Below are positions 2,571 to 28,184 of a stretch of 64,000 nucleotides of DNA, one piece after another. Where the stretch lies: NCBI GenBank assembly GCA_964019135.1, contig OZ025265.1, positions 21,365,143 to 21,429,142 on the forward strand, in the 5' to 3' direction. The translations under genes were made by a program, and so were the position numbers. Within the stretch, counting starts at the first letter, position 1. Every line of letters begins with the position of its first letter. Source of the stretch: Arenicola marina. Taxonomy: Eukaryota; Annelida; Polychaeta; Arenicolidae. The notes beneath the pieces were generated by a model. The model searched no databases. It was not told the origin of the DNA and was given only the letters and a program-made list of their open reading frames with translations.

Positions 2571-2607
2571 GATCGAGTTATGTCTTTTGTTTGACCAAAG
2601 CAGCCTA

Positions 2608-2933
2608 CTTACATGCGCCATCTTAGATTGTTTACATTTTAGAATCAAGACTAAAAGTATCTCAAAATTATGACGCACATATGTTTTCAACGTGAAACTG
2701 CGCGGACTAGTTTATCGCGCGGACGTGCAAGCGAGTCGCGGTCGACATCACACAGAATACCGAAAACAGGCGCGCAGGGATATAAGGCAGGCCACCAACT
2801 TCTGCTCCGGTGAACAGATTTGCTTCTCTCCGGATAGCCCACAGGCTTTCAGGATTTAAATTTAAGACAGAATTTACTTTTTTGTCATGGAGAAGATATT
2901 GGTAATATAAAAATTGGAGAACATATTGCTTTA
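2608..2933 (-). repeat. Interspersed repeat, copy 1 (inverted relative to 10188-10522)
   Basis: The segment matches 10188-10522 in reverse complement, including cttacatgcgccatctta and tctccggatagcc-type blocks, with one indel of about 35 bp. A minus-strand frame of 115 codons crosses it, but the second copy does not keep it open, so coding is doubtful. Confidence 0.75.
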
Positions 2934-5900
2934 ACGCGCCGCTGTCACAACGTGGGTCAGGTCGGTCCACGTAGGCTGAGCATCCGTACACATCGAACCA
3001 ATGTTTTTGCTCGAAAGGATTTATTTGCAGGGTTTTAATGTGCGAAAAAATCACTTAAGGTAGGTGGCTTTTCATAGGTGGCGGACACGTTGGTAATTTA
3101 TCCAGCTCGACAATTGCTCAAGTAGAGCTTGCAATTTTGTGTGGTGACCGGTTTACAAATGATTCGGTTTTGGGAGTTTCCACTGTAGACGTGAATACGC
3201 TAGATACGGATTTGTACCATTGTTATAGGTCCATTATCTACTGAAGGGTTGCTTCCCAAGCGCGGTTGAAACACGCTACAGCAAGGGGGCGGTGGCTCCA
3301 CTCCACTACCCTGGTATAGTTCTCATCAAGACCGGGCAGGGGGCAGGGGAGAGGCGGAAGGGTGGTGGTAACTAACCCGATAAAGGTCGGGGTCGATCAC
3401 ATGGAGGAGTGCAGTTGCAACGAAAAATGTAATCCTTGCAAAAAAAAAGTGGGAGGGATGGGGGGGGGGGCGGGGGGGGGGGATAGGGCACTCGATCATA
3501 CCACTAATACATCGCCAGCGCAGTATCTCAATTTCCATACATCGAATTCGAAATGGCACCCCGTAGAATAGCGTACGTTGTTTCCGTTTGCTCTCTTTCC
3601 GATCACGGCAGCGGTCGGTGTAATGCGGCAAGTTCCCAAGTGTGACCTTCCCAGTTCTCGATTAAAGACTCATGTTGTCAATCATGAGGGTCGTACACTG
3701 TTCCCATGTCACGCAACGTGACACAGACAGACGAAGCAACCCCCCCCCCCACCCCCGCAACACACACACGCTTGCTTGCGTCGTCGCTACGATAGTATAT
3801 ATGCTACACGGCATGACTGGTGGTGAACAGTTTTTACTAGACAAAATATCTTAATCGAAACAAAAAAGGAACCACCTCGGCATACTATGCGCTCTCAAGG
3901 AGATGACGAATCACACACCGTCTGCCATGCCGCCTGACGCTCATGACAAGCCAAGCAAGCACACATATCATCTGTCAATGTATGCCACACGTTAAGATAA
4001 CCGCCTATGGAAAAACATGCAGTGAAGTATCAAGGCTGCAAGTTATGCATGGTATAAAGTTAATGAAATCTGCTAAGGAATTCAAAACAATGCTGACAAC
4101 CTCGGATGTTTTCATGTGTCACTGTAATTCGTGCACATTGTGTAACATAGTTGACGGGTAAGGTTTTAATTAATAGATGATAGAATGGTTGCTATTTTTT
4201 TGTTACCATATAAAGATTTATCGCATCAACTCATGTCATTTTATCATTATCGGTCAATAGCGCTTGTGCTAATGTTTATTGTTGACTTTTATATACCGAC
4301 GTTAAATAAAACTTTATCTTATCTTATCTTAAGCCCTATTACTTTTATACATAAATAATAGAGCTATTTCATGTCAAACTTAATTCTCGCACTAAACCTC
4401 TCGATGTGGGTGGGGGGGGGCTTCATCCCTTCAGCGGCCATTCGTGTCTTATATCCGAATGCTCATATTCCCTATATGTAGCTCGAGGGGGGAGGGGGGG
4501 GGGGACAGGTTATACCATTCTGATGGGGAGTTCCGTAGACGCTGAAAAATAATGCCTGATTATGAAAAAGATTTTCTTTTAAAAAGACACCTCTTCAGAG
4601 AGCCAAAATCCGCTCGGTCGGGGCGTTTTGCGGCCAAAATCCCCTCGGAAAGGGTATTGTTCGCAGCACATTTCCAGAGACCACCCCCCCCCCCCCGCCC
4701 CCCCCCCCTCCCCGACACCCGGTCAAGATTTCAAATATCCGCTCTATAGGGGTATCTTTTTCATCACAAATGTCCGCTCCCTCAGGCATCAAGGGGCACC
4801 CGTGGGACCCCCTCCCCCACCATATTCGTATAACAGTGCCCCCCCCCCACCCCCAGCCACGGGCCTGGAACTGATAGTTCATAACACTAAATTGTAGAGG
4901 GTGACTGGGAAGTTCTGCTGTCATCCTTGGGGCGCATAACAGGGCACTTCTATAATTAGGGGACATATTGTATTCCCCAACGCGTTTTGAATTATTATGT
5001 CAGGATCTCTCTTTAAAAAGATATTATATTGCAATACCGAACTCAGGTATAACTGTAAACTTTAATTTCATCATAAGACACGTTGTCTGAAAATAATAAA
5101 GAGGGAGCATCTGCGCTTTTATCATAGCGGATCCCAACTTTTTGGGTTGTCCCACCCCGACCCCTTGAACATAGCTATAGCCACCCGGCAATAAGAGTAA
5201 ATGGTAGCTTATTATTTTCCGGTTTCCTGTACATATATCAATTACCTAGCTGAAGGCCTTGGCTTATTGGTACAGCTAGTATGCAGATAGACATTAAAAA
5301 ACGCATTCATTAAAAACCGGCCAAGTTAGGTCTGCCCCCCACATATATGTCCACTCGGTGACCATTTGGTAAATGATGCTAAAAATCTCAAAAGGATTTT
5401 TATATTTAACATAAGGCATATTTAACGCTTTAATTAATCGCCAAGTGGCAACACAATAGATCATTATGATTTCTGCCAGGCGTTGGAGCTCCTCCATGCT
5501 AGGGCCTCTGAGGGGAGGTAGCCATGTCGCTTGTCGATTTTAAAAATTGCCGTGTCGCCGTGTCGAAAAAGCCCTTCTGGGGCCCTCATGCTGTGTGGAT
5601 CACGCTATCAAGAGATAGGAGTGAAAACTGGCCGGAGTGGCACTTTACACTGTTCATTCTGTTATGCAATATATGTAGATATGGATGGTTCAATTCTGAA
5701 CATTTTACGCAAAGTTAAACTTAACAAAGAATGATAATCAAAGCCGTTTTGGGTGATCGTGAAAGGCGTATTACTTTGGGCGGGTGGGACTTCAGGACAA
5801 ATTGGTCCACGTACGCCATTATAAAATTGCCGGTGAATGTTTAATTATATAATTCATAGACAGAGAAAATAACGAAGCTAAACCCTCTTAAATTTTAATC

Positions 5901-6539
5901 TAGAAGGCAAATTTCTTTGATCATACATGGTAAATCGCATAGCGCGGGAACGTAATTTTGGGGCAAATATGTCCACTCGGTTGCTGCCCACTGCATGTAC
6001 GTGGTACCAAATCGAAAGGTAACAATGAGACTGAACCATATCTATGGCTTATAATACCCCACTGTTGACGCGTATTTTGCTTTATCAAACATATTAGAGG
6101 GGATCGGGAATACTTCTTCCGATAGCCGCGATTGGCATTGAGACATTCTTGGAGATTCACGATCAGCTGTTGGCAATTTTGGGGGATCGTTATCCGTACG
6201 ATTCCTGGTTCAATTAAGACCCTTTTGCTAATTACGGCGATCCGTTATATATAGCAGTCTGTGAATTCCTCGATATTCGCGATATCAGTGTTAAGTTTTT
6301 TTTTTTTTCGCGATGTTGATCAGTCCCCAACTTGGAGATTCGACATTACTCTCCCTAATTTTGGGGGATTCGAGCTCCCCAGGGGGTATAGTCCCACCCC
6401 CCATAATAGCCATGCCAAGATGAGAATAATGCGCTGGATTAAGTAATAGCCTGACAATTTATTATTACACAATAATCATACAAACAACATTCATGTAATT
6501 CCATATATGGCATCTGTGTAATGACAATAGTTAATGTGA
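2934..6539. other. No gene recognised; homopolymer-rich flank
   Basis: This stretch contains poly-G or poly-C runs (about 3461-3482, 4410-4420, 4494-4504, 4683-4710), and at 4297-4332 an AATAAAACTTTATC followed by repeated TTATC, which looks like a retroposon 3' end. Short open frames have no recognisable motifs. Confidence 0.5.
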
Positions 6540-6724
6540 AAAGTTGGGGCCTTTCCGAAATCTGGCAATGTCCCGTTTGGAGTTCATTCACAGCGGCAGC
6601 TTTAGCGAATGGTGGCGCCACCCTGGGGTTCAGATCTGAAAGTCGCGCCATCTGGCGAATGCCAACGTAAATATAGCTGAAACGGTTGCTTCCGGTCGTC
6701 ATTTCGCAAAAGTAAAACAACAAA
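6540..6724 (+). promoter_or_regulatory. Candidate promoter and 5' UTR of the Shisa-like gene
   Basis: The 185 bp before the start codon contain a TATA-like stretch (taaatatagc, about 6669-6678) and an ETS-like gcttccggt (about 6687-6695), followed by an A-rich leader. The start context aacaaaATGG has A at -3 and G at +4, a good Kozak match. No transcription start site can be fixed from sequence. Confidence 0.25.
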
Positions 6725-6791
6725 ATGGCGACGTTGTGTCGCATAGCGATTTTTTCGCTTCTATTTATTTGCTTTCTACTGCTCCTGGTTG
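6725..6791 (+). CDS. Shisa-like gene exon 1 (signal peptide)
   Basis: ATG in good Kozak context encodes MATLCRIAIFSLLFICFLLL and two further residues, a classic hydrophobic signal peptide. The exon ends in phase 1 at a strong donor, G|GTAAGT at 6792. Intron 1 is about 4.3 kb and holds the MITE pair and a tandem array. Confidence 0.8.
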
Positions 6792-9700
6792 GTAAGTACA
6801 CGTTTTATCTTCGGTCAAATGAAGGTAAATGTGAGGCCATGGCCGTATGAAGGAGTAAAGTGGAGATGTGACTGTGGGATGGGTGCTCCAGTTTCGGCAG
6901 AAAGAAAAAAGCTTGAGCGAAAATTGGGGTCCTGACATAACTCATAGACATAAGACTCATACATAGTCATATTTGACATAGGTCATACCTTGACATAAGT
7001 CATAACTTGACATATTTCATAACTTGACATAGAGTCATAACTTGACATAACTTACTCAGAAGCCTATGCGATTGGGGGGTGGGGGGGAATGTGTTAACGC
7101 CCACTTTGACTGCAGGATGTTTGGTCTATAGACGGAACGGCCGTACTACCACAACGGCCATATGGTCTCCCCGCCCCCTAGCATGGGTGGGGGGCGGGGG
7201 CGGGGGGGGGGGGGGGGGTGAGGGACGACAGGCGGCGGAGGGACGCTCGACAGCGTGGTTGTTATCGGCTTAGCAAGCTTAAAGTCAAAGTCATAAATGC
7301 TGTAGACACACGTTTCGGCCCATATTTTCCGCGAATTTGCCTCAATCACTCTCGAAATTCCTGACGTGAGAAAGCAACACTAGACCATTTTCATGATACC
7401 AAACTTACGTTTGTAATGCGATGTTATCCTTTTTTATGACACAAAGAATATTTCTCCATGCTGACACGCCATTGGCAGAAAACGCTCTGTCGCCAAAATA
7501 CTAAAACACGCGTCATAAAATGATGGTTGCCATGGCGCCGAACGTGCTTTGAACAATACATGCTCTATATTTATACAAGCCACGAGGATGCCATGGCAAC
7601 TAAAGAGCCTTTCATTGTCTGGGATTTAGTCTATTTGCGAAAGTGTGTCTGCTGCCAATGGAGTGTCAGCATGGAGAAATATTGTTTGTGTCATAAAAAA
7701 GGATAACATCGCAGTACAAACGTAAGTTTGGTATCATTAAAATGGTCTAGTGTTGCGTTCTCCTGTCAGTGATTTGTAGAGCGATCGCAGCACAATCGCG
7801 GAAAATATAGGCCGAAACGTGTGTGTACGGCATTTATGACTTTGACTTTAGCGGCTTAGCAAGGCCAGACAAAGAGTCGGCAATTGATAATAGTATATTA
7901 TATTGTTATATCGTTTATGTTAGTTAGTTTAGCGCAATGACTCACTCGATGGAACAAACAAAAGCCAGTGACCAGTAAGCAGGAAGCAATTCATTTATTT
8001 TTCACCCTCACCAATTTATTTACAACACATCACTTCCGACGGGTTCATCCGCGTTCTGCCTTCCTCCTCACCCTCCGGTCCCTTGTCCTCCCCCTCCTTC
8101 GCAACTTCTCCCATCACTCTTCGAGGTCGTCGTTCTCTATGTTGATGTCTATGTCGACCGCGTTCCCCATGTCGACCGGGTCCTTCTGGAGTTCCGGACG
8201 GGGACAGATGACGTGGCTCCCCGCGCGCAGAACGCCCAAGGCCGTTCTCTCGCCGTTTCGATACTCGTCCCACAGGCGACACAGGCGGCTGTTGGTCTCC
8301 TTTGCGCCATCACCCATTCCTTGCATCATTGCACACGGCACGCTTGATGCACACGGCCCGCTAATCGCTTCGCGCACCCCTGTCTCCAACCCAATCGACC
8401 CGGCTGTGTGCTTCACGCGCCCCCACCACGTCCCCCCCCCCCCCACCCCTATAGACCGCCACCCCACCCACCCTAACTCACACGGCCGTTGTGGTAGTAC
8501 GGCCGTTACATCCATACACCGGATGTTTTGATGTGGTTGAACATTTAAGATTTTTTTCATAATTTTCTAATAAGAAAAAATCGGGAACAGTTGTAAGCTT
8601 ATGCTCCAACATTTCTTCACGAAAATATAACAGAAACAACCTAAAGTCAAAGTCATAAATGCCGTAGACACACGTTTCGGCCCATATTTTCCACGAATTT
8701 GCCTCGATCACTCTCAAAATTCCTGACGTGAGAAAGCAACACTAGACCATTTTAATGATACCAAACTTACGTTTGTACTGCGATGTTATCCTTTTTTATG
8801 ACACAAAGAATATTTCTCCATGCTGACACACCATTGGTAGAAAAGGCTCTGTCGTCAAAATACTAAAACACGCGTCATAAAATGATGGTTGCCATGGCGC
8901 CGAACGTGCTTTGAACAATACATGCTCTATATTTATACAAGCCACGAGGATGCCATGGCAACTATAGAGCCTTTCATTGTCTGGGATTTAGTCTATTTGC
9001 GAAAGTGTGTCTGCTGCCAATGGAGTGTCAGCATGGAGAAATATTGTTTGTGTCATAAAAAAGGATAACATCGCAGTACAAACGTAAGTTTGGTATCATA
9101 AAAATGGTCTAGTGTTGCTTTCTCATGTCAGTGATTTGTAGAGCGATCGCAGCACAATCACGGAAAATATAGGCCGAAACGTGTGTCTACAGCATTTATG
9201 ACTTTGACTTTAGTGTCGACACACTTTATTGATGTCAGATGATAGAACAAGGTATATAGACTACGTAAACACTATGATTGTTCGAGCACACATTATAATA
9301 AAAGCTACAGTCGATTCCTTACTAACGTCGAAGGATTTTAATATTGTTACCATTGTATCCCTAGATAAGCTGGCTGGCCTGGGGGCACTTGCGCCAACAC
9401 ATAGCCTTGACCCTTGTACTAGGTTGTTCTCGGCAACATTGCTACAAGTTTGGGGTTAACTTGACATAAGTTATAACTTGAAGTCAACAAACGCCGCCTG
9501 GCAGCGAGTGCTCACGCTAAGTTTGTTTACTTCCGGCGAGCGGCGGAACATTCAAAACGAAGCGAGAGGTAAACAAAATCGCCCGGATTACAAGAAAATA
9601 CGTTACCAAGCAAAGAAATGAAAGTGCGACGAAAGTCCAAAAAGCTTTAGGAACGTTGTGGCGCACATTGGCGGGTAGGCACTGTATATTTTTTCTGTTA

Positions 9701-12700
9701 TGAACTTCAACTTGAGCCACCGGTCCGCGATTTCTGCCGATTTCTTGTTTTCGGCCGTTTCAGCGGCATGGCTCTCACACTAGCTCCGTTTACGGGTGTG
9801 GTCAGAGAGGCATGTACCAGGGCTAGGAGCCAGGTATCAGATAAGGAGAGACAGGGAGCAGACCATAGCTGTGTCATTGTAGCCTAGGCATTATTATGGC
9901 ATGTAGATTTCTGGATTCCAACAAAAATTTGATGAAGACACCATATATATTTAATATATTTATATATATCCAAGATACATATATATATGTCCAAGATACA
10001 TATATTTATCCAAGATACATTTATAACAGCATGATCTCATGCAAATATATACTATTGACTGTCGCTACAGATAATCTTATTGCAAAATCAAAATCTGTAG
10101 ATCCTGTTGGAAAAGTTGGAAACGTGTCATTTGATGAGGGTACACAGGTTATATTTGCCTTTCCATTTCTGCATAGATATTTTATACTGTATCAATTGAA
10201 AGCAATATATTCCATAATTTTTTGTATTACCAACCTCTTCTCCATGTCAAATAAGTAAATTCTGTCCGGAGAGAAGTAATTTGGTCACCGGCGCAGAAGT
10301 TGGTGGCCAGCTTTATATCCCTGCGCTTGTTCGCCATTCGGTATTTTGTGTGCGATGTTGACCGCGGCTCGCTATCACGTCCGCGCGCGATAAAAATAGA
10401 CAGCACAGTTTTATGTTAAAATGTTTGTTTTACAAACTCAGATATAAAACATATACATCATAATTTTTGAGATACTTTTAGTCTTGATTCTAAAATGTAA
10501 AAAAACTAAGATGGCGCATGTAAGTATATTGCTTTAATTGATATCAAGTTCACTATATGGGTAACTTTACAAATGCTTCAATGATTAAAAATAGTTAAAG
10601 GTGATATACCACTCACTGCCATTAAAAAAATAGTGGCAGAAAGTTTGTTTGAGGTTTGTTTTTTCGGATGATTATTTTGTGACAAGAATATAAGAGTTGT
10701 ATAACAAAAACAAGCTGCTGCATAGGCTTGGAGCATATATTTGCAGCACCAGAGGTTAACCAACATTTGGAATGGTTATGGGGAGTGATTGGAGAATGTC
10801 TTCAACACAGTCCTCCTTGATAATACCCCTCAGTCTCTCGCCCTCCCATTGGAGGTGGGGATGAGTTCTACAAACCAATGTTTGACTGGTTTAGCATGTA
10901 TATTATGGTTCCATTGGCACCTGTTATGATGATTAGCTGAACCTAAGCAGCCTATCTGGAGGCATACATTTTATTGTATCACCATATACCAGTATAAGGC
11001 AGCTGGAGACTACTACATTTAGTTTTGGCGGGACAGACAGAGCTCGATATGCAAGTTGAACTATTCTTTTCAGGCGACAATGAAGTAGAGGCACGTGGCC
11101 GCTTTGGTGGTCGTTTTGGTGGCAGTCGCTACAGTTCTACGCGCTACTCAACCAGATATGGTACCAGGTGAGATACACTGAAATGCCAGTCTGTAGGTCC
11201 TGGGATTTCTCCTCAGAAAACTATGGTGTATAAAATGAAAGTGTATTTTATTATGTTAGTAGTATTAGTGATAGCCAATCGGAGCATGACAGCTTGCTTG
11301 GGTAGCATATCAACAGTTATTGATATGACATAAATAATGTGTGGCCTGAAAGACCATTCATGCATCAGAAGTGAAATTTTATGCCGTCCTTTAAGGTCAT
11401 TGTCCCATCCTTTGATGTCTTTGTCCCATCCTTTAATGCCGTTGTCCCATCCCTTAATGTCATGTTCCCATCCTTTAATATCATTGTCCAATCCTTTAAT
11501 GTCATTGTTCCATGATCCTTTAATGTCATTGTCCCACCCTTTTATGTCATTGTCTCATCCTTTAATATCATTGTCCCATCCTTTAATGTCATTGTTCTAT
11601 CCTTTGTTGTCATTGTCCCATCCTTTAATGTCATTGTCCCATCCTTTAATGTCATTGTTCTATCCTTTGTTGTCATTTTCCCATCCTTTAATGTCATTGT
11701 CCCATCCTTCAATGTCATTTTTCAATCCTTTGTTGTCATTGTTTCATCCTTTAATGTCATTATCTCATCCTTTAATGTCATTGTCTAATCCTATAATGTC
11801 ATTGTCCCATGATCCTATAATGTCTGTCCCACCCTTTAATGTCATTGCCTCACCCTTTAATGTCATTGTCCCACCCTTTAATGTCTTTGTCCCATGGGTT
11901 TCTTAGCATCTTAATGTGTATACAAAGGTGACCTATTCTAACCCTCCACCTACCCATCCTCCAGGTATAGCACCGGATCCTCCCGCGTGAGAGTGCGGGT
12001 CAGACAGCGCTATGGTTACGGCTATGGCACGAGCGGCTGGTCGTGGCACGCGGCCGCCGCCGCTGGCGCCATCTATGGGTACAGGGGCTACTCCAACCGG
12101 AGACACTACCATGAGGGCAGAGGTGAGTCTTGTGGAGACACCACCACGAGGGCCGAGGTAAGTCTTGTGGAGACACCACCACGACGGCAGAAGTAAGTCT
12201 TGTGGAGACACCACCGCGAGGGCAGAGGTAAGTCTTGTGGAGACACCACCACGAGGACAGAGGTAAGTCTTGTGGAGACACCACCACGAAGGCAGAGGTA
12301 AGTCTTGTGGAGACACCACAACGAGGGCAGAGGTAAGTCTTGTGGAGACACCACCGCGAGGACAGAGGTAAGTCTTGTGGAGATACCACCACGGGGGCAG
12401 AGGTAAGTCTTGTAGAGACACCACCACGCGGAAAGAGGTAAGTCTTGTGGATACACCACCACGAGGACTGAGGTAAGTCTTGTGGAGACACCACCACGGG
12501 GGCAGAGGTAAGTCTTGTGGAGACACCAGCACGGGGGCAGAGGTAAGTCTTGTGGAGACACCACCACGACGGCAGAGGTAAGTCTTGTGGAGACACCACC
12601 GCGAGGGCAGAGGTAAGTCTTGTGGAGACACCACCACGAGGACAGAGGTAAGTCTTGTGGAGACACCACCACGAAGGCAGAGGTAAGTCTTGTGGAGACA

Positions 12701-15700
12701 CCACAACGACGGCAGAGGTAAGTCTTGTGGATACACCACCACGCGGGCAGAGGTAAGTCTTGTGGAGACACCACCACGAGGGCAGAGGTAAGTCTTGTGG
12801 AGACACCACCACGAGGGCAGAGGTAAGTCTTGTGGAGACACCACCACGAGGGCAGAGGTAAGTCTTGTGGAGACACCACCACGGGGGCAGAGGTAAGTCT
12901 TGTGGAGACACCACCGCGGGGGCAGAGGTAAGTCTTGTGGAGACACCACCACGAGGACAGAGGTAAGTCTTGTGGAGACACCACCACGGGGGCAGAGGTA
13001 AGTCTTGTGGAGACACCACCACGAGGACAGAGGTAAGTCTTGTGGAGACACCACCACGAGGACTGAGGTAAGTCTTGTGGATACACCACCACGCGGGCAG
13101 AGGTAAGTCTTGTGGAGATACCACCACGAGGACAGAGGTAAGTCTTGTGGAGACACCACCACGCGGACAGAGGTAAGTCTTGTGGAGAAACCACCACGCG
13201 GACAGAGGTAAGTCTTGTGGAGACACCACCACGGGGGCAGAGGTAAGTCTTGTGGAGACACCACCACGCGGACAGAGGTAAGTCTTGTGGAGACACCACC
13301 ACGAGGACAGAGGTAAGTCTTGTGGAGACACCACCACGGGGGCAGAGGTAAGTCTTGTGGAGACACCACCACGAGGGCAGAGGTAAGTCTTGTGGAGACA
13401 CCACCACGGGGGCAGAGGTAAGTCTTGTGGAGACACCACCACGAGGACAGAGGTAAGTCTTGTGGAGACACCACCACGGGGGCAGAGGTAAGTCTTGTGG
13501 AGACACCACTACGCGGACAGAGGTAAGTCTTGTGGAGACACCACCACGAGGGCAGAGGTAAGTCTTGTGGAGACACCACCACGGGGGCAGAGGTAAGTCT
13601 TGTGGAGACACCACCACGCGGACAGAGGTAAGTCTTGTGGAGACACCACCACGCGGACAGAGGTAAGTCTTGTGGAGACACCACCACGAGGGCAGAGGTA
13701 AGTCTTCTGGAGACACCACCACGGGGGCAGAGGTAAGTCTTGTGGAGACACCACCACGCGGACAGAGGTAAGTCTTGTGGAGACACCACCACGAGGACAG
13801 AGGTAAGTCTTGTGGAGACACCACCACGGGGGCAGAGGTAAGTCTTGTGGAGACACCACCACGAGGGCAGAGGTAAGTCTTGTGGAGACACCACCACGGG
13901 GGCAGAGGTAAGTCTTGTGGAGACACCACCACGAGGGCAGAGGTAAGTCTTGTGGAGACACCACCACGCGGACAGAGGTAAGTCTTGTGCAGACACCACC
14001 ACGGGGGCAGAGGTAAGTCTTGTGGAGACACCACCACGAGGGCAGAGGTAAGTCTTGTGGAGACACCACCACGGGGGCAGAGGTAAGTCTTGTGGAGACA
14101 CCACCACGAGGACAGAGGTAAGTCTTGTGGATACACCACCACGAGGACAGAGGTAAGTCTTGTGGAGACACCACCACGGGGGCAGAGGTAAGTCTTGTGG
14201 AGACCCCACCACGGGGGCAGAGGTAAGTCTTGTGGAGACACCACCGCGGGGGCAGAGGTAAGTCTTGTGGAGACACCACCACGGGGGCAGAGGTAAGTCT
14301 TGTGGAGACACCACCACGCGGACAGAGGTAAGTCTTGTGGAGACACCACAACGAGGGCAGAGGTAAGTCTTGTGGAGACACCACCACGGGGGCAGAGGTA
14401 AGTCTTGTGGAGACACCACCACGCGGACAGAGGTAAGTCTTGTGGAGACACCACCACGCGGACAGAGGTAAGTCTTGTGGAGACACCACCACGAGGGCAG
14501 AGGTAAGTCTTCTGGAGACACCACCACGGGGGCAGAGGTAAGTCTTGTGGAGACACCACCACGCGGACAGAGGTAAGTCTTGTGGAGACACCACCACGCG
14601 GACAGAGGTAAGTCTTGTGGAGACACCACCACGAGGACAGAGGTAAGTCTTGTGGAGACACCACCACGAGGACAGAGGTAAGTCTTGTGGAGACACCACC
14701 ACGAGGGCAGAGGTAAGTCTTGTGGAGACACCACCACGACGGCAGAGGTAAGTCTTGTGGAGACACCACCACGGGGGCAGAAGTCAGTCTTGTGGAGACA
14801 CCACCGCGAGGACAGAGGTAAGTCTTGTGGAGACACCACCACGAGGACAGAGGTAAGTCTTGTGGAGACACCACCACGAGGGCAGAGGTAAGTCTTGTGG
14901 AGACACCACCGCGGGGGCAGAGGTAAGTCTTGTGGAGACATCACCACTCTAGCTGAGGTAAGTCTCGTTGAGACACTTTACATGATGTGGTAGCGATATC
15001 TGCTCGCCATGAGATTTATTTTGATCTTGCTCTGAATAAAGAAATACATTTTGCAATTCCCTCAGATGGAAAGACAACTGCTCAGGACATTTTTTAAGTA
15101 ATTCTTCAAAATCGCGAATGAATGAAACACGAGCCCGACAATAATAGTTACATGTAGAAATGTATTGTTTTGGCCAATCCACCTTTAGTTTGTTTGAAAA
15201 TTTTAGCCCAAATGACTCAGCATTTTTGAATTGGCTGAAGTATAAGCCAAAAACTTGGCTGCAATAGATTATGGGAGCTTGCATTAGCCCAGATATGCAC
15301 AAAGGATTACTTATGACACGATCAAATTACAACGTTTTCTGTATACATTTTTTTAATCGAATTTGACGTTCCCCCGCCGTTGCAGAGCCGCAGATTTGCA
15401 TCAATAACGAGGCTTACAACATGGCTAACGGGACTTCGTACAGCATGTTCATCTGCCCGATGGCCGACCAACCGGATGACTACAAGTACTGCTGTGGCTC
15501 GGAGCCCAGACAGCGCTGCTGTACATTCTGGGACGAGTAAGTGGTACCTATTGCTGTCATTTTGTTCATACATTTTTTTTAGCTGTTTTCGCCAACTCGC
15601 CATACATCTGTTTCAGTAAGATTTGGGACCTCTTTTTTTTAAATTAAAAAACAAATAATTGTATTTTTTTAATATAAAACAAAGATCTACATCATTGACA

Positions 15701-18700
15701 ATAAATTCCTACTCCATCCCCTGTAGCGGCGCCCGTGTGTTCGGCGTCAGCATTACCTAGAGGATTGACAATATACTTACGCCCCCACTCCACCCCCCTC
15801 TAGCGGCGCCCGTGTGTTCGGCGTCATCGTCAGCTTCCTGATCTTCGCCGCTGTGGTGGGTGTCATTATCTACTGCTGCTGTTTCCGGCGGGCCACGGGC
15901 GGCAGGACCACCTTCCAGACCATCACCGTGCGCCACGAGAAACGTGAGTACTCGTCCCCTCACCCGGCCTCGGCGGGTGGAGGGAGGGAAAAGGGGCCTG
16001 GGAGGGTGGAGCGAGGCTGGGAGGGAGGTGGGAGACATTGGGCGGGGTTACCTATGGCCTGGGTGGGTGGAGGGAGGAGCCTGCCTAATATAATGCTAGC
16101 TATAAATCCATAGGTACTACCTTTGGCCTGGGTGGGTGGAGGGAGGTGGGGGCCACTGGGCGGGGTTACCTATGGCCTGGGTGGGTGGAGGGAGGTGGGG
16201 GACACTGGGCGGGGTTACCTATGGCCTGGGTGGTAAAGGAAGGTGGGGGACACTGGGCGGGGTTACCTATGGCCTGGGTGGGTCAAGGGAGGTGGGGGAC
16301 ACAGGGCGGGGTTACATATGGCCTGGGTGGGTAAAGGGAGGTGGGGGACACTGGGCGGGGTTACCTATGGCCTGGGTGGGTGGAGGGAGGTGGGGGACAC
16401 AGGGCGGGTGTACCTATGGCCTGGGTGGGTGGACAGAGGTGGGGGACACAGGGCGGGGTTACCTATGGCCTGGGTGGGTAAAGGGAGGTGGGGGACACAG
16501 GGCGGGGTTACCTATGGCCTGGGTGGGTAAAGGGAGGTGGGGGGCACTGGGCGGGGTTACCCATGGCCTGGGTGGGTAAAGGAAGGTGGGGGGCACTGGG
16601 CGGGGTTACATATGGCCTGGGTGGGTGGAGGGAGGTGGGGGACACTGGGCGGGGTTACCTATGGCCTGGGTGGGTAAAGGGAGGTGGGGGACACAGGGCG
16701 GGGTTACCCATGGCCTGGGTGGGTGGAGGGAGGTGGGGGACACTGGGCGGGGTTACCTATGGCCTGGGTGGGTGGAGGGAGGTGGGGGACACAGGGCGGG
16801 GTTACATATGGCCTGGGTGGGTAAAGGGAGGTGGGGGACACAGGGCGGGGTTACCTTTGGCCTGGGTGGGTAAAGGGAGGTGGGGGACACAGGGCGGGGT
16901 TACCTTTGGCCTGGGTGGGTGGAGGGAGGTGGGGGACACAGGGCGGGGTTACATATGGCCTGGGTGGGTGGAGGGAGGTGGGGGACACAGGGCGGGGTTA
17001 CATATGGCCTGGGTGGGTAAAGGGAGGTGGGGGACACAGGGCGGGGTTACATATGGCCTGGGTGGGTGGAGGGAGGTGGGGGACACAGGGCGGGGTTACA
17101 TATGGCCTGGGTGGGTAAAGGGAGGTGGGGGACACAGGGCGGGGTTACCCATGGCCTGGGTGGGTGGAGGGAGGTGGGGGACACAGGGCGGGGTTACCTT
17201 TGGCCTGGGTGGGTAAAGGGAGGTGGGGGACACAGGGCGGGGTTACCTTTGGCCTGGGTGGGTAAAGGGAGGTGGGGGACACAGGGCGGGGTTACCTTTG
17301 GCCTGGGTGGGTGGAGGGAGGTGGGGGACACAGGGCGGGTGTACCTATGGCCAGAGAGACTGGGAGGGAGGTGGGGGACACTGGGCGATGGAGTACTTAC
17401 GGCCTGGAAGGGACTTATATCGTAATGGTTTATTGGTTCTTTTAGTTTCGAAGCGCACCCGGCGAACCACATTGTATGAAACTCGCAATAAACCGTCCTG
17501 ACTTCTTGCAAGGCAGCGACGCGTCTCTACGCTGTTTTATTAGTATGGAAATACGTACTTTTAATTTTAAATATTACTTTTAATGGGAGGAAAACATGCA
17601 CCCAAGTTGGCCAGCTTCGTGCGAAAACCTATTTTGTGATATACTGTATTTTTGCATGCATTTGTTGTACATTGTATGCACATTGTATTTGAATTATTAT
17701 TTAACATATTTGGTGTGCTGGTGGGTTAATTGCAGGAAACGTTACCAGTCAATTTTCCTTTATTCTAGTTGCAGATATGCAGTTGTTATCCATTAATTAA
17801 TGCCCGAACAACATTCAAATAGCGGGCCAAGTTTGCGTTCTTAATTTTACCTGAAATGTTAACAAAAATTGTGAGGGGAAAGATCTTGACTTTTCATCAA
17901 AGCCAAGTCAGTACATGGATAATCATTTGCCTAGTACCGCCTTATTATTCACTCATATTTTCAATACTTTTGCAATGGTACATACAAATATAGTTGTAAA
18001 TGCCTGTGTCAAATTGGGTGTCCTAGTGTGGGATGAATATGCAAACTGCGAAAACTAGAAGGTTTTTTGCTGTGGGCCCGCTTTTGTCTAGTTTCTCGAC
18101 GATAAACGGCTTTGCATAAGCTTAGTCCAAGTGTAGATGTTAAAGTTGCATGTGGAGCTCTTTCCCGCCAAAACTAATGAGGTCAAAATACATATAAGAA
18201 TCAGTCCTTGAATCATTCAAGACTTCTTTTATTTATACTCCACCCATACCAGACTGCCAAATAGTGTCTCTTAGCCTTGTCCGTGATATTAATTTACCAC
18301 AAGTTTTCATTTTAGTGGTAAACGTCATCAGTTTGTGTGCTTCGCGATGCTTTGGTATAAGTAGCAGTACAGCGGCCGAGTTCTGTGGTGTCCCGGGATA
18401 GACACGTTTGCCACACCACAGCCGAAACGGCGATGTTTATCAGGTTTCTGAATTTATAGAATGAAACAATCGAGTTTTCTGCAAATTTTGATATAAATTT
18501 CTCCTAGGTTTAGTTTTGGCGGGAAAGAACTCGACATGCAACTTTAAACAATAAGTTGAAGTCGGTGCTCTTGATAACGACATTTTCCTTTGACGAGCGT
18601 TGCAATATTATAGCGGAATCACGTTGCATTTGTCCTTCAAGTCATATCCGGTGTTTTTGTGGGTAACTGTGATACAAACATGGTAACTCCTTATTAAATC

Positions 18701-21700: not shown

Positions 21701-24700
21701 CCGTCTCCCCTTTCCCGTCTCCCCTTTCCCGTCTCCCTGTTCCCGTCTCCCCTTTCCCGTCTCCCCTTTCCCGTCTCCCCTTTCCCGTCTCCCCTTTCCA
21801 GTCTCCATTCCCGTCTCCCCATTCCTGTCTCCCCATTCCCGTTTCCCCATTCCTGTCTCCCCATTCCCGTCTCCCCTTTCCCGTTTCCCCATTCCTGTCT
21901 CCCCATTCCCGTCTCCCCTTTCCAGTCTCCATTCCCGTCTCCCCATTCCCGTCTCCCTTTCCCGTCTCCCCATTCCCGTCTCCCCTTTCCCATTTCCCCA
22001 TTCCCGTCTCCTCTTTCCCGTCTCCCCATTCCCGTCTCCCTTTTTCCGTTTTTCCTTTCCCGTTTTTCCTTTCCTGTTGCCCATGTAGTGTTACAGCTAA
22101 TGATACTAACCTCAAAACTGGACGAACATAACTTTTGTTTGTCTTATATCTACGTGTAAGTTAATGTAATGGACACGCCCTCGGAGCGCTCGCCTTGAGT
22201 GCTCTGGCCACCTGAGAGCCTAACGGCACGTGGATTGGTGGTTCGCGCGCCGCTGTGGCGCTCTGTCGGTGTGGTCGCAGGATGAAGATCCATATCCTTC
22301 AACGAGTAGACACGGCTCCACTCTCCCTCCCTTCTCCCATTGACGCGATATGACCAAAAGTAGTTAAAAGAGTCCTGAATATACAACCAAGCAACCAGCC
22401 ATTATTATCTGGTAATGTCGCTTTCCGAGGACGTTAACTTATGTAGAATCCACACTCTTATGAGTTATGAAGAGTTAAGATAATTGATGTCAGTTGGTTG
22501 CTGGGGTCCTGATCTTTGGGTTGCCTCAGCCTCGCCCACCACACCGCACTGGGATAAACGAAGCCTTCACTGGGATAAACGGAGCTCAGCTGGTGGCGCA
22601 CTGAATGGGCTGTGGAGCAACAGACCCGTGATGGACCCCACACCATGACCATACAGCTTATTGTATTGAATCGGTGTGTTGTTCTCTTAAATCACTTACA
22701 GTTGTTCGACAAGTTGTTCGACAAGCCAGCTAAACTATGTACGTGAAACAGGTCGCACGACACTGACTCACTGCACGTGTCGCGGTTCAGCGCCATACGC
22801 CGTCAGACGCTGAGTCAGAGGGTGTATGGCCAAATCAGACACCCGGATACCTCGTGCTGTAAATAATTAGAATGTTTTGCCATCGACACATCCCGTACCG
22901 ACACCACTACCGTGTAGCCTCTGCGGTGTGAGCCCGAGAGAACTGATCTCGTTGCTGTAGACTAATCCTGCATGTGTTGGTTTTGTCCATTTATGTTTCT
23001 GTTATCATATAATTGTAATAAATATTTGTGTCTTGGCATCGGCCGTCCGGAGGCATACGTGAGCTATGCGGACATTATGATCCTTACTAGTGTGGCGATT
23101 CGAACCGCCTACCTCTCTCTCTGGCACTCTGGCTCTGTTTTTAGTTAAAATATTTAAGGTTTCACGACGTTACAAATGGCAGATCTAGCCTTCGAAATAT
23201 TTTTGACTTTAAAAAAGAAATCGTGTATGTAATTTTTGACAGTGTTGCTATTAACTGTTAAATCCAGATAATTGTGCACATATTTCACGTACTTATGTTA
23301 TGTAGATAATGCGTCAATAAGAGATAACCTATTAGGTTTTTTTGGCATGAGCCCCCCCCCCCCCCCTCCCACACTTTTACACCATTCCATTGGCGATGTC
23401 TATTCACCCTGCACTGCTTCTCCCCCTCACAGGGCCGGCCCCACCCTACCCCCAGCCGGGGCCTCCCCAGCCCGCCTACCCACCGCAACCACCGATGGGA
23501 CCCCAGCCCCCCATGGATGGCGGGTACCCCCAGGGCGGGATGCCCTACCCCCCGGGCCCGGGCATGGAAGCCCCACCTTATGGTCAGGGCATGGAAGCCC
23601 CACCCTATGGTCAGGGTATGGAGGCCCCACCCTATGGTCAGGGCGGACCCCCCATGTACCCGGCGAAGGATGGTCCGCCGTACCCCCCGGTTACCCACGG
23701 TAAGTAAACACCCCTCCAGGGACGGGTCACCAAGGCAACTGTCGTATCTGTGTTGCATAACATGTCGCAGATGACCCCTACGGAAATAATAAAAAAAAAT
23801 AGCGTTGTAAATAAAAAATATTTTAAAATAAAATAGTAACACCCCTTTAGGGACGGGTCACCATGGCAACCATCGTCTCTTATTATCTGTTGTATTACAT
23901 GTCGGAGATGACCCAATAAGGAAATAATAAAAAAATTGCGTTATCAATAAAATAAAAACAAATATTATTATATTTATTAATAAATATAAAATTATATTTT
24001 AAAATAAAATTATATTTTAAAATAAAATTATATTTTAAAATAAAATTATATTTTAAAATAAAGTAAAATAAAAGTGGCGCAATACGTTCATTTTATATTA
24101 AAATTTGTTGTGACTCATTGTTTGGGTTAACGTGAATCCAGTTTTCGATATTGCGGCTCAGGTGTGTACCACTCACATTTAGTACAGCCATCGATTTCGT
24201 GGCGCCTAACCTTTAGATGGGAGACTTTTTGTCCCGATTATCACCATCAGCTGTTTATATCATACATTGTGTCACATAGGGTCACAGTATCAGCTTTATT
24301 ATGGACAGCCGTTCTGACATTTTATTATTTTGAGTCTCAATCTCAATCTGCCGGCGGGGCCGGCGCGATAGCTCAGTGGGTTAGAGTGTTCGCATTGAGT
24401 GCTGTGGCCACCTGAGAGCCTAACGGCACGTGGGTCGGTGGTTCGAGCCCCGCTGTGGCTGTGTCTGTGTGGTCGCAGGATAAAGATCCCATGTCTTTCT
24501 TCGTAAAGAGTAGGGGGTTACCCCCGGGGACATGGCTCCACTCTCTCTTCCCTCTCCCATTGACGCGACATGACCAAAAGTGGTTAAAGCGTCCTGAATA
24601 ACCAACCAAGCAATCAATCTGCCGGTGGTAATCACTATTATAATTGTTTTTAGCGAAATGTCATTGATAAGAAATGTAGCTATGGATGGACCAGTCACCC

Positions 24701-27700: not shown

Positions 27701-28184
27701 TCTTCAGATATTGTGAACAATTTAAGGCTCTAGTGTTCTTTTTAGATTTTGTTGGGAACATGGGTAGAACACTCCACAATTGACAATCCGTTCATCTCTT
27801 GGATTCGGTAGACTGTCTGCACTGTATGTGGAAGAGAGTGGCTGTTATGTGATAGAGTCCCCATAATAACTACTATAAGAAAGAAAATGAAGAAAACGAT
27901 GAATACTAATGAAAAAGCAATATTACAGGAAAATAACGCTTATTATGGAAAGCAAATAAGGTCCACTGTGAACGGCAAAATGTTTGTGATGCCTATTTCT
28001 TGCATATTCTCTAAAACCGTTTGCTTATGCATACTGGTAAAGGCTATAAAGGCTTGCGAACTAATTATGGGTATGATTTATTGCTCTATGCATTGTTTTC
28101 GACTTTTTAACTATTTTCGGTGTTTTCATTCTTCCAGACCCCAACATGCCGACAAGTACCCCTCCCCCACCTTACCCACAGTGA
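6725..28184 (+). CDS. Shisa-like (STMC6-type) single-pass membrane protein gene, 11-exon model
   Basis: Eleven exons with GT-AG borders join in one open frame of 1239 nt (412 residues). The order is signal peptide (residues 1-22), a Gly/Arg/Tyr/Ser-rich ectodomain (23-106), a six-cysteine core (107-157), one membrane helix (about 160-182) ending in CCCFRR, and a tail of about 230 residues rich in Pro, Gly and Tyr. The cysteine pattern C-C-CC-CC followed directly by the helix is the Shisa/STMC6 signature, with YCCG and RCC. Family members act at the ER, Golgi or plasma membrane as adaptors or receptor-trafficking modulators; their tails often bind WW domains, and this one ends in a strict PPxY (PPPPYPQ). 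The partner and exact role here are unknown. Every exon junction keeps phase, which is strong evidence for the model. Most introns carry minisatellites. The closest vertebrate paralogue cannot be chosen from sequence reading alone. Confidence 0.82.
6932..7051. repeat. About 20-bp tandem array (cttgacataagtcataa) in intron 1
   Basis: About six degenerate units begin about 140 bp past the exon 1 donor. A stray unit of the same motif, aacttgacataagttataa, recurs at 9459-9478 after the MITE region. Confidence 0.8.
7139..7159 (+). repeat. 21-bp inverted repeat, left arm
   Basis: ggccgtactaccacaacggc plus one base is the exact reverse complement of 8484-8504. G-rich sequence follows this arm and C-rich sequence precedes the partner, as if both belong to one inverted element end. 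Confidence 0.7.
7280..7850. mobile_element. 571-bp long-palindrome MITE, copy 1
   Basis: The element starts TAAAGTCAAAGTCATAAATG and ends with its reverse complement. The arms are about 260 bp and the centre carries a ccatggc..gccatgg palindrome. An 11-bp direct repeat ggcttagcaag flanks it (7267-7277 and 7853-7863), consistent with a target-site duplication. Very long inverted repeats with 9-11-bp duplications suggest a Mutator-like origin (inference). Confidence 0.85.
8114..8345 (-). pseudogene. Unrecognised coding-like fragment between two MITE copies
   Basis: A minus-strand frame with coding-like composition reads NSRLCRLWDEYRNGERTALG, then VLRAGSHVICPRPELQKDP and an acidic end DIDINIENDDLEE with a stop at 8114. 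An AATAAA (revcomp, about 7991-7996) lies about 120 bp past the stop. It could be the last exon of a transposon gene or a retrocopy. I do not recognise the family. Confidence 0.4.
8484..8504 (-). repeat. 21-bp inverted repeat, right arm
   Basis: Exact reverse complement of 7139-7159, 1.3 kb away; the two arms bound a segment with the first MITE copy and the coding-like fragment. Confidence 0.7.
8642..9212. mobile_element. 571-bp long-palindrome MITE, copy 2
   Basis: Same length, same orientation and only scattered differences from copy 1 at 7280-7850. No matching target duplication is seen at its flanks. Confidence 0.85.
9483..10187. other. Intron 1, no gene; short AT-rich tandem
   Basis: The only structure seen is about three copies of a 20-bp unit (ccaagatacatatat) at 9970-10022. 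Confidence 0.4.
10188..10522 (+). repeat. Interspersed repeat, copy 2
   Basis: Reverse-complement partner of 2608-2933. Shared blocks include gtccggagagaag, gcagaagttggtggcc and taagatggcgcatgtaag. It lies in intron 1 of the Shisa-like gene. Confidence 0.75.
11022..11063 (-). mobile_element. Degenerate MITE end next to exon 2
   Basis: tttagttttggcgggacag and ctcgatatgcaagtt match one terminus of the piggyBac-like MITE at 18144-18543 with several changes. The rest of this copy is not recognisable. Confidence 0.55.
11074..11167 (+). CDS. Shisa-like gene exon 2 (Gly/Arg/Tyr-rich ectodomain)
   Basis: The acceptor ctattcttttcag precedes it and the donor AG|GTGAGA follows; phases are 1 in and 2 out. 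It encodes GDNEVEARG and then a low-complexity segment with RFGG and STRYSTRYGTR motifs. A degenerate MITE end (about 11022-11063) lies just upstream of the acceptor. Confidence 0.8.
11385..11895. repeat. 21-bp minisatellite in intron 2
   Basis: About 24 units of tcctttaatgtcattgtccc with small indels fill the second half of the short intron 2 and end about 70 bp before the exon 3 acceptor. The array encodes a spurious Ser-His-Pro-Leu frame. Confidence 0.93.
11965..12122 (+). CDS. Shisa-like gene exon 3 (Tyr/Gly/Ala-rich ectodomain); its 3' edge seeds an array
   Basis: The acceptor catcctccag and the donor CAGAG|GTGAGT frame 158 nt, phases 2 in and 1 out. It encodes RVRVRQRYGYGYG, an Ala-rich patch AAAAAGAIYGY and NRRHYHEGR. 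The last 15 or so exon bases plus the donor are the template of the 35-bp minisatellite that fills intron 3. Confidence 0.82.
12107..14980 (+). repeat. 35-bp minisatellite of exon 3-intron 3 junctions, about 81 units
   Basis: The period is exactly 35 bp from 12121 to 14956. Each unit is gagacaccaccacgaggg, cagag, then GTAAGTCTTGT. It copies the last bases of exon 3 and its donor, so nearly every unit has a CAGAG|GTAAGT 5' splice site; one unit (14781) has lost it. Units differ at two or three positions (acgagg, acgggg, acgcgg). The 1004-, 923- and 480-codon minus-strand frames are a by-product. Confidence 0.97.
14990..15385. other. Intron 3 remainder, no gene
   Basis: About 400 bp of unique AT-rich sequence between the array and the exon 4 acceptor; the 117-codon minus-strand frame here starts in unique DNA and has no recognisable motif. 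Confidence 0.5.
15386..15536 (+). CDS. Shisa-like gene exon 4 (six-cysteine core)
   Basis: The acceptor ccgccgttgcag and the donor GA|GTAAGT bound 151 nt, phases 1 in and 2 out. It encodes PQICINNEAYN, an N-glycosylation sequon NGT, MFICPMADQ, KYCCGSEP and QRCCTFWD. The cysteine spacing with paired CC-CC is the hallmark of the Shisa extracellular domain and of the wider STMC6 superfamily, where the six cysteines form disulfides. Confidence 0.88.
15727..15760 (+). pseudogene. Truncated duplicate of the 5' edge of exon 5
   Basis: About 30 bp around the exon 5 acceptor (tag plus cggcgcccgtgtgttcggcg) are repeated 77 bp upstream, with the acceptor AG kept at 15725-15726. If used after exon 4 the frame reads DGARVFGVSIT and then stops at 15758-15760, before any membrane helix. 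Confidence 0.6.
15804..15943 (+). CDS. Shisa-like gene exon 5 (transmembrane helix)
   Basis: Acceptor cccccctctag, donor AAAC|GTGAGT, phases 2 in and 1 out. It encodes VFGVIVSFLIFAAVVGVIIY, a single membrane helix, followed by CCCFRR (likely palmitoylation or stop-transfer) and a basic juxtamembrane stretch ending VRHEK. A truncated copy of the exon's 5' edge lies 77 bp upstream. Confidence 0.88.
16015..17400 (+). repeat. 49-bp G-rich minisatellite in intron 5, about 28 units
   Basis: The unit is close to gcctgggtgggtggagggag plus gtgggggacacagggcgggg plus ttacctatg. It begins about 75 bp past the exon 5 donor and ends 45 bp before the candidate alternative exon. Runs of three to five G occur several times per unit on the coding strand, so G-quadruplexes are possible in RNA and non-template DNA. 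Confidence 0.96.
17446..17501 (+). CDS. Candidate alternative last exon of the Shisa-like gene
   Basis: A good acceptor (ttggttcttttag) just after the 49-bp array opens a frame matching phase 1 of exon 5. It would add LSKRTRRTTLYETRNKPS and a stop at 17499-17501, giving a short basic tail in place of the Pro-rich tail. An AATAAA lies inside it (about 17487). This could be chance; no donor is needed if it is terminal. Confidence 0.3.
17502..18139. other. Intron 5, no gene
   Basis: Unique AT-rich sequence; only short chance open frames are seen. Confidence 0.4.
18144..18543. mobile_element. 400-bp piggyBac-like MITE in intron 5
   Basis: The termini AGTTGCATGTGGAGCTC and GAACTCGACATGCAACT form inverted repeats of about 34 bp with two mismatches, extending through ttcccgccaaaacta. 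TTAA lies exactly outside both ends (18140-18143, 18544-18547), the target site of piggyBac transposases. There is no internal coding capacity. Confidence 0.8.
18743..18760 (+). CDS. Shisa-like gene exon 6, 18-nt in-frame microexon
   Basis: A strong acceptor (gtgtttctgtatcag) and a strong donor (CTG|GTGAGT) enclose only 18 nt. Both neighbouring junctions are phase 1, so inclusion adds exactly six residues, (R)NRETA(G), and skipping is also in frame. A cassette microexon is therefore plausible; transcript support is absent here. Confidence 0.5.
18854..19050. repeat. 68-bp tandem repeat, about 2.9 units, in intron 6
   Basis: Units run ttgtaggacatctttggtgt to atggggacttata. The array begins about 95 bp past the microexon donor. 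Confidence 0.9.
19051..19763. other. Intron 6, no gene
   Basis: Unique sequence. A 101-codon frame (19523-19828) runs into exon 7 in another frame and shows no family motif. Confidence 0.4.
19764..19808 (+). CDS. Shisa-like gene exon 7 (start of cytoplasmic tail)
   Basis: The acceptor ttttgtttcttag and the donor ACAG|GTCGGT frame 45 nt, phase 1 to phase 1. It encodes QPTYSGVSTVPPVT. The short Ser/Thr/Pro segment after the basic juxtamembrane stretch fits Shisa tails. Confidence 0.65.
19850..20155. repeat. 18-bp minisatellite in intron 7
   Basis: About 16 units of ccatctcgtacccacata with variants (tatatacc insertions) begin about 45 bp past the exon 7 donor. Confidence 0.93.
20160..21342. 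other. Intron 7, no gene; polypyrimidine tract before exon 8
   Basis: Mostly unique sequence, ending in (CT)n, a C run (21276-21290), an A run and the exon 8 acceptor. No motif in the 130-codon frame at 20801-21193. Confidence 0.4.
21343..21441 (+). CDS. Shisa-like gene exon 8 (Pro/Met-rich tail)
   Basis: A long CT/C tract has no AG until ggttacccag at 21342, which sets the acceptor; the donor is ATCCAG|GTCAGA. Phase 1 to 1. It encodes DPIMPPMGQMIPPPHSGPM and a second Pro-rich half ending QPGQDP. The low-complexity composition matches exons 9 and 10. Confidence 0.72.
21515..22085. repeat. 14-bp pyrimidine-rich minisatellite in intron 8
   Basis: About 40 units of gtctcccctttccc and gtctccccattccc. 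One strand is almost purely pyrimidine, with one G per unit. The array starts about 75 bp past the exon 8 donor. Long open frames on both strands are artefacts. Confidence 0.95.
22172..22400 (+). mobile_element. tRNA-derived SINE, family A, diverged copy
   Basis: It matches the family A consensus: tgagtgctctggccacctg, agagcctaacggcacgtgg, a degenerate B box (ggtggttcgcgcgcc), gtggtcgcaggatgaagatc and the end ctgaatatacaaccaagcaa. The head is damaged. Confidence 0.8.
22401..23432. other. Intron 8, no gene; possible LTR-like stretch
   Basis: 22680-23090 is unique here and has an AATAAA (about 23018) and a terminal tRNA-like gattcgaaccgcc; a solo LTR is possible but no paired LTR or coding region is seen. 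A C run lies at 23350-23366. Confidence 0.3.
23433..23699 (+). CDS. Shisa-like gene exon 9 (Pro-rich tail with coding repeats)
   Basis: Acceptor ctccccctcacag, donor CACG|GTAAGT, 267 nt, phase 1 to 1. It encodes PAPPYPQPGPPQPAYPPQPP and then three tandem copies of GMEAPPYGQ (27-bp DNA repeats, 23561-23641), followed by PPMYPAKDGPPYPPVTH. Such tails in Shisa relatives bind WW or SH3 domains. Confidence 0.8.
23561..23641 (+). repeat. 27-bp coding tandem repeat, three units, in exon 9
   Basis: Three exact-length copies encode GMEAPPYGQ each, with a few silent changes. A short in-frame minisatellite inside a coding exon. Confidence 0.95.
23703..23955. repeat. About 125-bp tandem duplication just past the exon 9 donor
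   Basis: Two units share aacacccct, agggacgggtcacca, ggcaac, gatgaccc and aaataataaaaaaa. The first unit starts a few bases past GTAAGT. Confidence 0.85.
23970..24078. repeat. AT-rich 18-bp tandem array in intron 9
   Basis: About five units of aaattatattttaaaata. Confidence 0.9.
24356..24609 (+). mobile_element. tRNA-derived SINE, family A, full-length copy
   Basis: The head gcgcgatagctcagtgggtt (A box region) and B box ggtggttcgagccccgct are tRNA-like. The body has gtcgcaggataaagatccca, cgtaaagagtagggggttac, cccattgacgcgacatgacc and the end gcgtcctgaataacc. It lies in intron 9. Confidence 0.9.
24779..24931 (+). CDS. Shisa-like gene exon 10 (Pro/Gly/Tyr-rich tail)
   Basis: Acceptor tgttccggcag, donor GGCG|GTAAGT, 153 nt, phase 1 to 1. 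It encodes DGAPYPPAGGPMPYPPGPPG, then PNQPYPPAGPGGYPPPSNPP and PGMYPPG. The spaced PYPP and GYPP repeats resemble the annexin or rhodopsin-tail type of low-complexity sequence. Confidence 0.78.
25000..25854. other. Intron 10, diverged direct duplications, no gene
   Basis: Blocks such as gttcagcaatcgtag / gttcagtgatcctgt and agtcagaaa..gacgaag recur with about 190-bp spacing, indicating an old degenerate tandem duplication past the exon 10 donor. Confidence 0.4.
25860..26165 (+). mobile_element. tRNA-derived SINE, family B, with three tandem tRNA heads
   Basis: Three consecutive heads of about 57 bp each carry gtagtggttagcgcac and gggttcgaatcc (B box), then a body with gtcccgcgtgggtccttggc and cgcacaagcggcataaaa and an attaattcaattca tail. 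Only the last head is joined to the body. Confidence 0.8.
26166..26854. other. Intron 10, no gene
   Basis: Unique AT-rich sequence without recognisable motifs. Confidence 0.4.
26855..27115 (+). mobile_element. tRNA-head tandem array and SINE-like body
   Basis: Four units of about 45 bp (gtcaccccgtggcctagtg, gtagcgcaccctcttagag) precede a tRNA-like end with a B box gtggttcgaaccccacc and a body gtgtaaagatcccacatatt. Confidence 0.75.
27189..27418 (+). mobile_element. tRNA-derived SINE, family A
   Basis: gcccgatagctcagtgggtg, a changed B box (acttcgagcccggc), aaagatcccatgtctttctt, gggattacccccggggacat and the end cttgaatatacaaccaacca. It has a small deletion near the 3' part. Confidence 0.88.
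27419..28137. other. End of intron 10, no gene
   Basis: Unique sequence up to the exon 11 acceptor; a second partial SINE end (cattgccgcgatatgacc) lies at 27426-27460. Confidence 0.4.
28138..28184 (+). CDS. Shisa-like gene exon 11 (C-terminus with PPxY)
   Basis: Acceptor gttttcattcttccag; the exon encodes DPNMPTSTPPPPYPQ and a TGA at 28182-28184. The terminal PPPPY is a strict PPxY motif, typical for binding WW domains of NEDD4-type ligases. No canonical AATAAA was seen in the next few hundred bases before the 60-bp array, so the 3' end is not fixed. Confidence 0.75.

Follow-up and report, generated by a model that had tools for sequence, protein, structure and literature searches.

What happens to an exon when its own 5' splice site is copied some 80 times, head to tail, into the intron that follows? 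A 64,000-nucleotide stretch of contig OZ025265.1 (hereafter the window; coordinates are those of the window unless a locus is named) raises this question. In a Shisa-like gene encoded on its plus strand, most of intron 3 consists of a 35-bp tandem array whose unit joins the edge of exon 3 to its donor. Amplification of this junction, an open gene model around it and the recurrence of such arrays at other exon edges are shown below. We consider it probable that the array is a neutral ‘mirage’ of the kind described from amphioxus, spliced from 12122 to 15386.

An exon–intron junction amplified at exact spacing

Tandem Repeats Finder (TRF) reported one array of period 35 with 82.2 copies (93% matches, 0% indels, score 4923), and tabulating its units gave 82 in-register donor positions, from 12123 to 14958, spaced exactly 35 bp. 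The original prediction, a reading of the bare sequence, had proposed a junction unit repeated about 81 times at exact spacing and an origin by amplification of an exon–intron junction; both proposals held, with the exon now called by reading frame and homology. As a repeat, the array is far beyond chance. A 23-base segment of the unit has 65 exact matches in the genome assembly (867 Mb, 762 contigs), every one of them inside the array.

GAG/GTAAGT occupies 79 of the 82 donor positions, the native GTGAGT one and weakened versions two, leaving 80 of 82 donors strong. The corresponding 9-mers are GAGGTAAGT (79 units), GAGGTGAGT (the native edge at 12123), GAAGTAAGT and GAAGTCAGT (one unit each). 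A near-invariant donor had been predicted, and a strong donor is indeed found in almost every unit. The native edge, however, reads taccatgagggcagag/GTGAGT rather than caccacgagggcagag/GTAAGT, and the units are therefore diverged copies of it. Scored with a human donor matrix, the array donor (11.7 bits) and the native donor (11.4 bits) are nearly equal, so that strength alone cannot explain a correct choice, if the choice is correct.

Departures from the consensus number 3 of 35 positions in the first unit and 7 of 35 in the last, whose donor is at 14958; those of the last unit lie chiefly in its exon-derived part. The 80 inner units comprise 29 distinct sequences, with columns −9 (A 40, G 24, C 16) and −6 (G 49, A 31) the main variable ones. 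Two blocks of unit types, LVELQL and LVVXLV, are each present twice in the array, a pattern that unequal exchange or a comparable turnover process would produce. A 1014-codon open frame runs antisense to the array (11933–14977, minus strand); it looks artefactual, as the repeat unit contains no antisense stops.

The host gene is Shisa-like

A model of seven exons (6725–28184; Table 1) has a joined frame that stays open to its stop and encodes 307 amino acids (aa). The array begins in exon 3 and takes up 87% of intron 3. As in the Shisa family, a Shisa_N cysteine domain is followed by a membrane helix and a PPPY-like tail, the latter two recognized by eye. The Pfam model PF13908 scored 23.3 bits against the exon 4 frame (cut-off 22) and, slightly below the cut-off, 21.8 bits against a 101-aa query. 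At the 5' end, the ATG of candidate exon 1 was the sole one in 2581–11070 to pass a filter for a hydrophobic N-terminus plus a phase-compatible GTRAG donor; an alternative donor at 6830 fitted too. Within exon 6 lies a 27-bp coding repeat (23560–23644; GMEAPPYGQ three times).

A protein database search returned nine matches at E up to 0.01, two of them molluscan. The best is annotated with a Shisa N-terminal name and belongs to the annelid Paralvinella palmiformis (E 3.3e-52; 47% identity across 66% of the query). When seven of these matches were aligned with the query, the exon 3/4 junction coincided with a conserved motif that reads mainly REPxICxN and has invariant P, C and N. None of the aligned homologues has an insert at the junction, and the query is two residues shorter than most of them just before it. 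The conserved motif and the lack of homologue inserts indicate that joining 12122 to 15386 yields a conserved protein. A homologue search with a shorter query gave no match, probably because the short query excluded full-length relatives, and a search of solved structures returned two zinc-transporter chains only (E 0.08), which is uninformative.

Table 1 Features of the Shisa-like gene and its junction array in the window
Feature	Position	Strand	Basis
Candidate exon 1: start codon, signal-peptide-like MATLCRIAIFSLLFICFLLLLV, donor GTAAGT	6725..6791	+	Frame and hydrophobicity only
Exon 2, TTTCAG/.../GTGAGA	11074..11167	+	Frame and homology
Intron 2 minisatellite, 24 copies of 21 bp, ends 69 bp before exon 3	11387..11895	+	TRF
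Exon 3, CTCCAG/...GCAGAG/GTGAGT; last 24 bases are part of the first, diverged array unit	11965..12122	+	Frame, homology
35-bp array; unit joins the exon 3 edge to its 5' splice site	12099..14976	+	TRF, unit table
Native donor GTGAGT	12123..12128	+	11.4 bits, human matrix
TAA stop within the array, in frame with exon 3	12194..12196	+	Frame reading
Donor of the last, divergent unit	14958..14963	+	Unit table
Exon 4, Shisa_N cysteine core, phase-compatible with exon 3	15386..15536	+	Pfam PF13908, E 6.8e-5
Upstream duplicate of the exon 5 acceptor edge (two copies in all); splicing to it would lead to a stop	15694..15749	+	Probe/frame
Exon 5, transmembrane helix (by eye)	15804..15943	+	Frame, homology
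Exon 6, proline-rich tail	23433..23699	+	Gene model
Last exon, ending PPPPYPQ-stop	28138..28184	+	Gene model

Arrays at other exon edges and across the genome

A genome search with two exons of the query (E ≤ 10) returned ten places, two of which were the query's own exons. By their cysteine pattern, loci L013 to L017 (E 2.2e-6 to 0.18) look Shisa-like, whereas L018 to L020 (E 0.32 to 1.73) do not. At L014 (1586–3138), a Shisa-like paralogue exon is overlapped by an 84-bp exon-plus-donor array that reaches the end of the locus. On the reverse strand of L013 (1–1549), a 42-bp acceptor-plus-exon array of 36.9 copies lies ahead of, and overlaps, another such paralogue exon. The donor of the Shisa-like exon at L017 (1652–3106) is itself duplicated (2.4 copies) and is followed by a GTGAGT-rich 17-bp array of about 78 units. 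L015 and L016 have no array at those of their exon edges that were identifiable. Outside the family, a donor array with 12.8 copies of a 45-bp unit (L018, 480–1048) sits on the first farnesyl-diphosphate synthase exon there, a gene identified by sequence recognition and by PF00348 matches in and beside the locus. The units of these other exon-edge arrays are unrelated to the 35-bp unit.

How common minisatellites are was estimated from 20 stretches of 10 kb (200 kb) taken from contigs C1 to C6, with C7 to C20 and the small contigs left out. Arrays with a period of at least 10 cover 31.8% of this sample, or 30.6% when at least three copies are required (95% bootstrap 18–45%; median stretch 20%), and arrays cover 20% of the window. 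On a strict count that leaves out the L016 donor, which was not identifiable, 4 of 27 identified exon edges lie inside arrays of at least three copies. Against a background of about 31% in the sample and 20% in the window, preferential placement of arrays at exon edges is not supported: the edges show no sign of attracting arrays, nor are they wholly spared.

Overlap filtering left 81 sampled arrays, of which 16 are parts of a single stretch (L040). A donor of at least 9 bits was present in 2 of the 81, against 1.75 expected from shuffled units, and one of at least 6 bits in 16, against 13.3. Strong donors are thus no commoner in sampled array units than in shuffled ones. The first matches listed for a triple-donor pattern represent nine arrays within the first 39.5 Mb of C1, counted on the plus strand only; rough extrapolation would put such arrays at a few hundred genome-wide.

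Some sampled arrays are large: one stretch consists entirely of a 46-bp array (L035, 1–10000; 217.5 copies), and another holds a 48-bp array of 85.2 copies (L034, 1–4089). A 60-bp array of about 77 copies occupies L021, 7943–10000, and positions 1–2572 of the window, where no neighbouring exon was recognized; its unit, a pyrimidine tract plus CAG followed by GTAACA, resembles a back-to-back acceptor and donor. A Pfam scan of ten sampled reading frames matched three (two cadherin and one weak, below the cut-off), with seven lacking a match.

Probable neutral amplification and its alternatives

The array looks like a by-product of repeat growth. A tandem duplication of the exon 3/intron 3 junction would have given birth to the minisatellite, which block duplications would then have enlarged, in a genome about one-third of which, judging from the 200-kb sample, consists of such arrays. 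The spliceosome would define exon 3 at the exon-proximal donor at 12122 and join it to 15386, and the other 81 donors would be removed as ordinary intron. Since the true edge remains at the outer end of the array, the amplification would probably have been neutral or nearly so.

Several points weigh against this account. Use of the 12122 donor is a prediction from frame and homology. The 27 exon edges are few and were partly chosen through an array-linked chance match (L018), which leaves some bias in the count. The triple-donor pattern has 3456 overlapping matches in the genome (1138 + 2318) versus 2274 (1210 + 1064) for a reversed control; as triplets overlap and long arrays dominate, these counts can be read neither as enrichment nor as its exclusion. 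Lastly, the donor 9-mer of the 35-bp array shows just two minor alleles across nine columns (3 of 720 cells non-consensus; column permutation P 0.04), and minor alleles are absent from the L014 and L018 donor windows, making weak selection conceivable.

Might the array act on expression? Binding of the U1 small nuclear ribonucleoprotein (U1) to many units could slow the splicing of intron 3 or divert transcripts to non-productive isoforms that are degraded. Most donors are strong, as noted above, and use of 81 of the 82 would lead to a shortened or frame-shifted protein. The stop that the original prediction placed inside the array is present, and downstream donors would give truncated products, as it foresaw: 79 of the 82 donors would meet the array stop, the third would lead to a stop in exon 4, and the second would put exon 4 out of frame, with a stop in exon 5. 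Yet sampled array units hold no excess of donors, donor conservation is not significant over four arrays (see below), a like anatomy occurs at an unrelated gene, and published mirages seemingly left regular splicing undisturbed (PMC3087553). The proposed roles as a U1 sink, a splicing brake or an isoform source are favoured by nothing in the present analysis, and we judge an effect on expression unlikely.

Some edges of this gene have a local second copy: one scoring at least 40 was found for 2 of 8 probed exon edges (the exon 3 donor and the exon 5 acceptor) versus 6 of 400 random probes outside arrays. The other copy of the exon 5 acceptor edge lies at 15764–15826, 77 bp from that listed in Table 1.

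Still less credible is selection on the units to retain a working 5' splice site, for example if only donor-bearing arrays escaped cryptic processing. The low diversity of the donor 9-mer speaks for it. However, 7 of 35 nine-base windows have a variant count as low as that of the donor window, bases +7 to +9 are just as invariant although they lie beyond the donor core, and GTAAGT alone gives a column permutation P of 0.075. Windows without minor alleles make up 27% of those in the L014 array and 42% in the L018 array, and the L017 donor window is variable. Combining the four donor arrays yields P 0.11 when minor alleles are counted and P 0.20 when non-consensus cells are. Comparison of the donor with the rest of the unit, which had been put forward as a check, thus gave P 0.04 in the array alone and no significant difference over four arrays. 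The proposed unit-level selection is not supported, and weak constraint is neither shown nor excluded.

We attach equally little credence to an assembly artefact, in which the array or its copy number would be unreal: arrays are difficult to assemble and a single haplotype was seen, but the diversity of the inner units, the location in a 33-Mb contig and the similar arrays at other loci argue against it, although the exact copy number rests on one assembly and is uncertain. U1 suppresses intronic polyadenylation, and U1 along the array might shield the transcript from premature polyadenylation at AATAAA 15035, 59 bp past the array and the sole AATAAA or ATTAAA in 12101–15400; hexamers of this kind occur frequently in other parts of the gene region, no observation links the array to this particular one, and we find the idea the least plausible of all.

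Relation to known systems

With near-identical donors at a working exon edge, the locus is a natural test case for the way in which the spliceosome selects one of many equal 5' splice sites. Should the host be a lophotrochozoan, minisatellites of this kind would not be peculiar to cephalochordates and would result from a high rate of minisatellite birth. Going further, we raise as a tentative and rather doubtful proposition that the spliceosome of this animal chooses by position (exon-proximal, through exon definition) and not by strength, and that several of its genes can for this reason tolerate from dozens to about 80 near-equal 5' splice sites. Junction amplification would then be a frequent mutation of almost no cost, in a protostome lineage as well, and would maintain a reserve from which new exon ends and introns could arise.

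The closest parallel is the amphioxus mirages, and no report of junction minisatellites outside amphioxus was found in the open-licence literature. Mirages were described at donor and acceptor edges of Adh3 and globin genes, with unit lengths of 10–160 bp, regular splicing by reverse transcription PCR, allelic and somatic instability, and a proposed model of intron gain (PMC3087553); PGBD5 was added later, with troponin C cited (PMC3902484). The present array is likewise a head-to-tail minisatellite whose unit lies over an exon–intron boundary, as judged by frame and homology, and whose authentic edge is a terminal, diverged unit. In Adh3, BflGb6, BflGb9, troponin C and PGBD5, too, tandem units span a real exon edge, splice signals are retained in many units and the authentic edge lies at the array end (PMC3087553, PMC3902484). 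The one gene copy found in the assembly shows internal block duplications.

The differences are of scale and lineage. Where those accounts give numbers, mirages have 2–7 copies, against 82 here; they were described from cephalochordates, whereas the closest protein relative here is annelid; and the present genome contains further junction arrays, with about one-third of its sample minisatellite. An amphioxus host, considered initially, is improbable in view of that annelid relative; a search for the GFP family (PF01353) gave no match either, which is weak evidence taken singly, as the search had no positive control. Intron 1 of earthworm metallothionein resembles our case as an annelid gene with large intronic minisatellite clusters, but repeats of an exon–intron junction are not described in the available part of that report (PMC12783039). 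Ordinary intronic variable number tandem repeats share the unit length, the block duplications and the divergent end units; the present unit differs from theirs in holding an exon–intron junction and a strong 5' splice site.

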